A stretch of 44,180 nt of DNA from Candidatus Parcubacteria bacterium (GTDB lineage: Bacteria; Patescibacteriota; Minisyncoccia; JAHIHE01; JAGLIN01), in assembly GCA_023140775.1 (NCBI GenBank), contig JAGLLA010000011.1, positions 1-44,180 on the forward strand, written 5' to 3'. Positions 26,840 to 27,367 of the stretch are shown here, piece by piece. Both the position numbers and the translations under genes were made by a program. Within the stretch, counting starts at the first letter, position 1, and each line of letters starts with the position of its first letter. A model generated the notes under the pieces. That model saw only the letters and a program-made list of their open reading frames with translations, made no database searches and was not told the origin of the DNA.

Positions 26840-27207
26840 ATAAAAAAACAGGCCTTGATGCCTTTTTGGGATAATGAGAAATTGAGATTAAAAGAGGACG
26901 AAGTTGATGTATTATTTAAAGTTTACATCGACATATGCCTTGTTTCGTCCTCATTTGTTATTTTGTCATATGACACTTCCTTCATAGCTCTAGGCTATGA
27001 TTTTTTGCAATTGCGCAATTTGCGCTCTGCGGCCGGTGTACTGGTGATCAGAAATTGGTCTTATAATCTATTTTGCATTTTCTGAAATCTTTTGTATCTA
27101 TTTTCATTGTTACTTATTCCTCTCGAATCTAATACACCTTAGTGCAATTTTGTAGATTCTATATTTTAAAGTCCTGTCTTTCTAGCAAAAACTAGAAATC
27201 GACTTTA
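26840..27207 (-). ncRNA. Candidate structured ncRNA A (novel)
   Basis: Minus strand: TTGACA(27242-27237)-17 nt-TAGATT(27219-27214), hairpins TTTCTAG/CTAGAAA, GAATCTA/TAGATTC, TCATAGC/GCTATGA, TGTCATATGACA, GAGGACGAA/TTCGTCCTC, then AGGC-atcaag-GCCTGTTTTTTT terminator. Confidence 0.6.
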
Positions 27208-27213
27208 CTAAAT

Positions 27214-27242
27214 AATCTATCACGATATCGAAATCTTGTCAA
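27214..27242 (-). promoter_or_regulatory. Sigma70-type promoter for ncRNA A
   Basis: TTGACA, 17-nt spacer, TAGATT on the minus strand. Confidence 0.65.
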
Positions 27243-27367
27243 CCCCTATTCAGAAAAACTTATGCACATCACAAAACTTTACATAATCAATAAAAGTACT
27301 AGAATAAGGAATATGGTTGTGAATAGAAAATTATTTTGAATTTTTATAGGAAATAAAAAAAGTAATT

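Follow-up and report, generated by a model that had tools for sequence, protein, structure and literature searches.

RNA A, which lies on the minus strand of a 44,180-nucleotide stretch of DNA (here called the window), is, judged by sequence comparison, a genuine and previously uncatalogued RNA gene that is family specific within the Patescibacteria. The reading we favor, held with about even confidence, is that it is an independently transcribed, lineage-specific, partly translated structured RNA gene that would use ribosomes for protection or gating; partial translation, rather than a plain non-coding character, is probable because RNA A carries two very short ribosome-binding frames. The window makes up contig C3 of a genome of 638 kb (70% complete), which has Candidatus Moraniibacteriota, Paceibacterota, and other Patescibacteria as its named relatives.

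The transcription unit is conserved, and its features are listed in the table. The minus-strand TTGACA-17-TAGATT promoter claimed in the preliminary description is present (27242-27214) and has an extended -10, with a TG one base 5' of TAGATT; the pyrimidine-rich linker and the terminator with seven T residues are likewise found at the 3' end on that strand, as it had proposed. All 11 homologues retain the arrangement TTGACA-N-TGNTANNNT. A loose scan for promoters in the RNA A region gives no excess (13 found, 13.7 expected), and the strict pattern TTGACA-N16-18-TANNNT occurs eight times in the window versus 2.6 expected, with none of 100 shuffles having as many. Promoters of the TTGACA plus extended -10 type are also located 5' of tRNA and protein genes elsewhere in the genome, and strong expression from the RNA A promoter is plausible.

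Table. Predicted features of the RNA A locus, in order of transcription (window coordinates)
Feature	Position	Strand	Remark
Promoter: TTGACA (27242-27237), 17-nt spacer with TG, -10 TAGATT (27219-27214)	27214..27242	-	
RNA A, predicted transcript of ~367 nt	26841..27207	-	Start placed from the -10 element
5' stem-loop (outer helix and inner hairpin)	27166..27208	-	Compensatory changes
ORF1, ATG start, 19 codons (MKIDTKDFRKCKIDYKTNF)	27048..27107	-	Counterpart ORF in homologues
Structured core with GCGCAA/TTGCGC hairpin	26983..27047	-	Length most variable among relatives
Mini-ORF, ATG ACA AAA TAA	26958..26969	-	AAGGAAG 5' at 26982-26976
Hairpin GAGGACGAA...TTCGTCCTC	26894..26952	-	Main helix 5 nt past mini-ORF stop codon
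Terminator AAAAAGGCATCAAGGCCTGTTTTTTT	26841..26868	-	Sequence recurs at 3' end in relatives

RNA A does not belong to a catalogued class. The inability of the preliminary description to match it to tmRNA, RNase P, SRP, or 6S signatures agrees with the Rfam search, in which the window has no match at the gathering score and nothing convincing at a relaxed E-value; across all families of Rfam 15, including 6S and SRP, neither the window nor the homologous loci give a match at the curated thresholds. Identity with tmRNA (RF00023) or RNase P RNA (RF00010) is rejected, as neither model matches in the window and the genome encodes both RNAs on other contigs. A limited literature search found no earlier description of RNA A.

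An equivalent RNA is present in single copy in 11 of the 15 genomes of the family, spanning six genera, and DNA similarity identifies RNA A in each of the four genomes of the genus of the window; there it lies upstream of a Na/Pi cotransporter gene, in divergent orientation, and is followed by a 323-aa ORF, the length of the SDH protease. In six genomes of other genera (G004, G005, G007, G008, G009, and G010) RNAs of the same architecture, 414 to 1,104 nt long, are positioned 5' of the cotransporter gene, giving an overall range of about 370 to 1,100 nt; the cotransporter gene directly adjoins the RNA in divergent orientation, with the RNA upstream, in 10 of 10 checkable cases. The neighborhood in G006 is only partly checkable because its cotransporter gene is not contiguous with the RNA in the assembly, and the DNA 3' of this RNA resembles that 3' of the RNA in sister genomes. 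Common to the homologues are the promoter, a 5' stem-loop that covaries, and a hairpin that precedes the 3' end; most also keep the terminator sequence. Ten homologues were used to build a search model covering the promoter and 5' helix. It recovers those ten and G006 at one place each with more than 58 bits; among 387 genomes drawn from across the class, no others score above 41 bits, the next best hit being at 40 bits, and RNA A was not found by this search in roughly 370 further genomes of the class. Four genomes of the family lack the RNA or have it truncated: G011 retains the terminator only, G013 retains a 3' part, and next to the cotransporter gene of G012 and G014 no counterpart is seen. 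The segment between the RNA A promoter and the cotransporter gene (27245-27310) is conserved at the same place in several genera and includes TTATGCACA, which is DnaA-box-like, as well as a plus-strand TTTACA/TAGAAT promoter.

This gene order bears on whether RNA A is a leader or attenuator of the SDH-type protease gene, a reading that we consider very improbable. The preliminary description placed the RNA downstream of the protease gene, but the order is the reverse, with the protease gene ~690 nt 3' of RNA A on the same strand, and in the genus of the window it is the next gene on that strand, as a leader would require. However, the terminator and another 690 nt or so separate the two, and in several other genera the DNA following the RNA reads by inspection as an opposite-strand gene, which we take, by eye, to be tgt. 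A cis-acting leader or attenuator is rejected, as the same-strand protease gene is found only in the genus of the window and not with all of the homologous RNAs. That RNA A is a leftover of a gene or mobile element that has decayed earns even less credence from us: its length and content vary and it is lost or truncated in some genomes, as a remnant might be, but the promoter, the terminator, and compensatory base changes are maintained, the long frames of the long RNA versions have no Pfam match above the cut-off, and the window copy has no phage match.

The RNA folds strongly. The approximately 370 nt of folding RNA noted in the preliminary description is borne out for RNA A by a z-score of -4.0, with none of 100 shuffles folding as well, and all 11 homologous RNAs outfold their shuffles (z of -2.9 to -8.0). 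In 10 of 10 homologues folded, the prediction includes the outer helix of the 5' stem-loop, which has double compensatory changes, with 90% of cells paired versus 39 to 56% when the alignment is slid. The covariation proposed earlier as a check is therefore present in the 5' helix, but not at the level of the whole RNA: the covariation term of an RNAalifold consensus of the four sequences of the genus is negligible (+0.25), the promoter itself is drawn into pairing, and no whole-RNA consensus structure was achieved because the core is too variable. The 5' stem-loop is probably a generic 5' element, because the weaker hits inspected (32 to 40 bits) belong to different transcripts, among them leaders of protein genes, that have a similar element, and as a mark of the family it is rejected on the same ground. 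Near the 3' end, the long GAGGACGAA/TTCGTCCTC hairpin recognized previously is present on the minus strand (26952-26894), and a stable hairpin precedes the terminator in all homologues, with arms that differ in sequence. The cores of G009 and G010 (L086 and L087) have in common a module of ~84 nt (GATCAGTG...CTGATC) with 75% identity and, by inspection, apparent compensatory changes; this module may fold as a domain of its own.

The two short frames would set RNA A apart from a simple non-coding RNA. The preliminary description saw no convincing ORF, but the frames at 27107-27048 (19 codons) and 26969-26958 match frames led by Shine-Dalgarno sites in relatives. ORF1 is present in all 11 homologues with 16 to 33 codons (in G008, where the first start gives only four codons, the ATG after it is taken as the ORF1 start), and all 11 RNAs have a mini-ORF of two to eight codons, coding at the same place in relatives for MTM, MKM, MRI, MTQ, MKKI, or MRRF. 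By a strict rule and with dinucleotide shuffles as the null, the 11 homologues contain 23 Shine-Dalgarno start sites versus 5.9 ± 2.6 (a 4-fold excess; the maximum in 300 shuffles is 13), and by strict automatic scoring over 130 nt the mini-ORF stop codon is located 5 to 6 nt before a helix in 8 of 13 cases, versus 8.6% of positions in the same RNAs, although both counts are weakened by the relatedness of the homologues, which are not independent. The mini-ORF site passes the strict rule in all 11 RNAs; that of ORF1 is weaker or more distant and fails it in G000, G002, and G010, and in the genome of the window it is GAGAGG at 27124-27119, both weak and distant. In the window copy three weak extra pairs precede the main helix, which begins 5 nt past the stop, and the G005 stop codon is 1 nt from the hairpin, contrary to the spacing rule. 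Since mini-ORFs with Shine-Dalgarno sites are common between genes (38 in 96.5 kb of intergenic DNA in the genome of the window), one genome alone proves nothing, and the comparison across genomes carries the argument. A GATCC motif after ORF1 was considered as a complement of the 16S rRNA 3' end and rejected, as the 16S tail of a relative shares by inspection little beyond GATCC.

The presence of ORF1 in 11 of 11 homologues, with one Phe aligned in 10 of them, could indicate a small mRNA whose product is the fast-evolving ORF1 peptide, such as a signal or bacteriocin-like peptide. We judge this distinctly improbable, as the peptides otherwise have almost no sequence in common, those tested have no Pfam match, and the mini-ORF and the core would be left unexplained. 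In the closest pair, G001 and G003, identity is 100% for the ORF1 ribosome-binding site and 92% for the linker and terminator, whereas ORF1 itself is 61% identical at the nucleotide level, lower than its flanks; the ORF1 body thus drifts while its ribosome-binding site is unchanged, which suggests that ribosome engagement, rather than the peptide, is kept.

A purely structural or antisense small RNA, with incidental frames and a pyrimidine-rich 3' part that pairs with mRNAs, is possible if rather unlikely. It would account for the strong folding, for the conservation of the hairpin, linker, and terminator, and for the similar purine/pyrimidine hairpin and terminator at the ends of two unrelated RNAs in the window, RNAs B and C (described below), and it is consistent with the frequency of mini-ORFs in intergenic DNA. 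It does not explain the 4-fold excess of Shine-Dalgarno start sites over shuffles, an ORF1 start context that is kept while the body drifts, or the spacing of mini-ORF stop codons to the hairpin. Of the original proposal of a novel structured ncRNA, what holds is a separate structured unit that is absent from Rfam and has covariation and synteny in relatives; the simple non-coding reading is unsupported because of the start-site excess and the positioning of the stop codons against the hairpin.

For the partly translated structured RNA that we favor, we infer expression, ribosome engagement, and any regulatory role from these sequence patterns. A strong sigma-70-type promoter would drive a transcript of 370 to 1,100 nt, ordered as 5' stem-loop, short ORF1, fast-evolving structured core, mini-ORF of two to eight codons with its stop codon abutting a hairpin, and terminator. 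The product is most likely the RNA itself, with ribosomes serving as part of its architecture: a ribosome that binds or terminates at the mini-ORF would protect the transcript against nucleases, hold the base of the adjacent hairpin open, or both, and the pyrimidine-rich arm of the hairpin and the linker could pair with other mRNAs. A bolder proposal, which we regard as quite unlikely, is that RNA A represents a new ribosome-gated RNA class built on modules in which a Shine-Dalgarno site and start codon are followed by one to seven codons, a stop codon, and, 5 to 6 nt farther on, a hairpin; the folding and activity of such an RNA would depend on ribosome availability, and it would sense translation without coding for a useful peptide.

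Known systems offer partial parallels. OLE, ROOL, GOLLD, and HEARO are large structured RNAs of unknown role, transcribed independently as long, strongly folding molecules; RNA A is likewise a strongly folding, predicted independent transcript, but it has no Rfam match, is much smaller in this genome, and has a core that is not conserved across genera. With the dual-function small RNAs SgrS/SgrT, RNAIII, SR1/SR1P, and VcdRP it shares an independent folded transcript that combines a short, Shine-Dalgarno-led ORF with an RNA part, and conserved sequence signals give the predicted transcript its own promoter and terminator, as is expected of that group; unlike them, its peptide is hardly conserved and it has a second mini-ORF. 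Small RNAs often contain ORFs (PMC5521070), and short ORFs or strong Shine-Dalgarno sites can protect or stabilize transcripts, an example being the two-codon mg2 of axe-txe (PMC8708949). RNA A resembles such regulatory minigenes in having ORFs of a few codons with Shine-Dalgarno sites, but mg2-type minigenes sit in the leaders of protein genes, whereas the RNA A transcript has no following gene and its stop codon is spaced to a hairpin.

Several other candidate RNAs were observed in the window and in relatives. RNA B (35358-35008, minus strand) has a TTGACA plus extended -10 promoter, a folding z-score of -6.0, and a purine/pyrimidine hairpin and terminator of the same kind as those of RNA A; no Rfam match was found for it, and similar transcripts are present in G001 (L044) and 3' of uvrA in G003 (L041:11241-11500, minus strand). 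RNA C (34958-34800, minus strand), for which no convincing Rfam match was found, has a TTGACA-17 promoter, a hairpin AAAGTGGGAGGTG/CACCTCCCACTT, and a terminator CAGCATCTATGCTG-T6. A conserved RNA of ~140 nt at L183:1535-1710 (also in L177 and L178), with a long closing helix TTTGTAGACAG/CTGTCTACAAA and a z-score of -3.4, has no Rfam match even at a relaxed E-value and is 6S-like in outline but unclassified; the start of a transcript like it is located at about 16945 of G000:C34, minus strand. The transcripts L182 and L186 (G010:C85 and G010:C49) closely resemble each other; both have a 5' stem-loop and, ahead of an ORF, a long inverted repeat, and they look like members of a repeated gene family.

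RNA regulation in the Patescibacteria, whose genomes are very small, is little known, and RNA A adds a family absent from Rfam that has a defined genomic place and architecture. If the favored reading is true, RNA A would be a concrete case of ribosomes serving an RNA as structural or protective components, with the ribosome-binding sites kept while the peptides drift.
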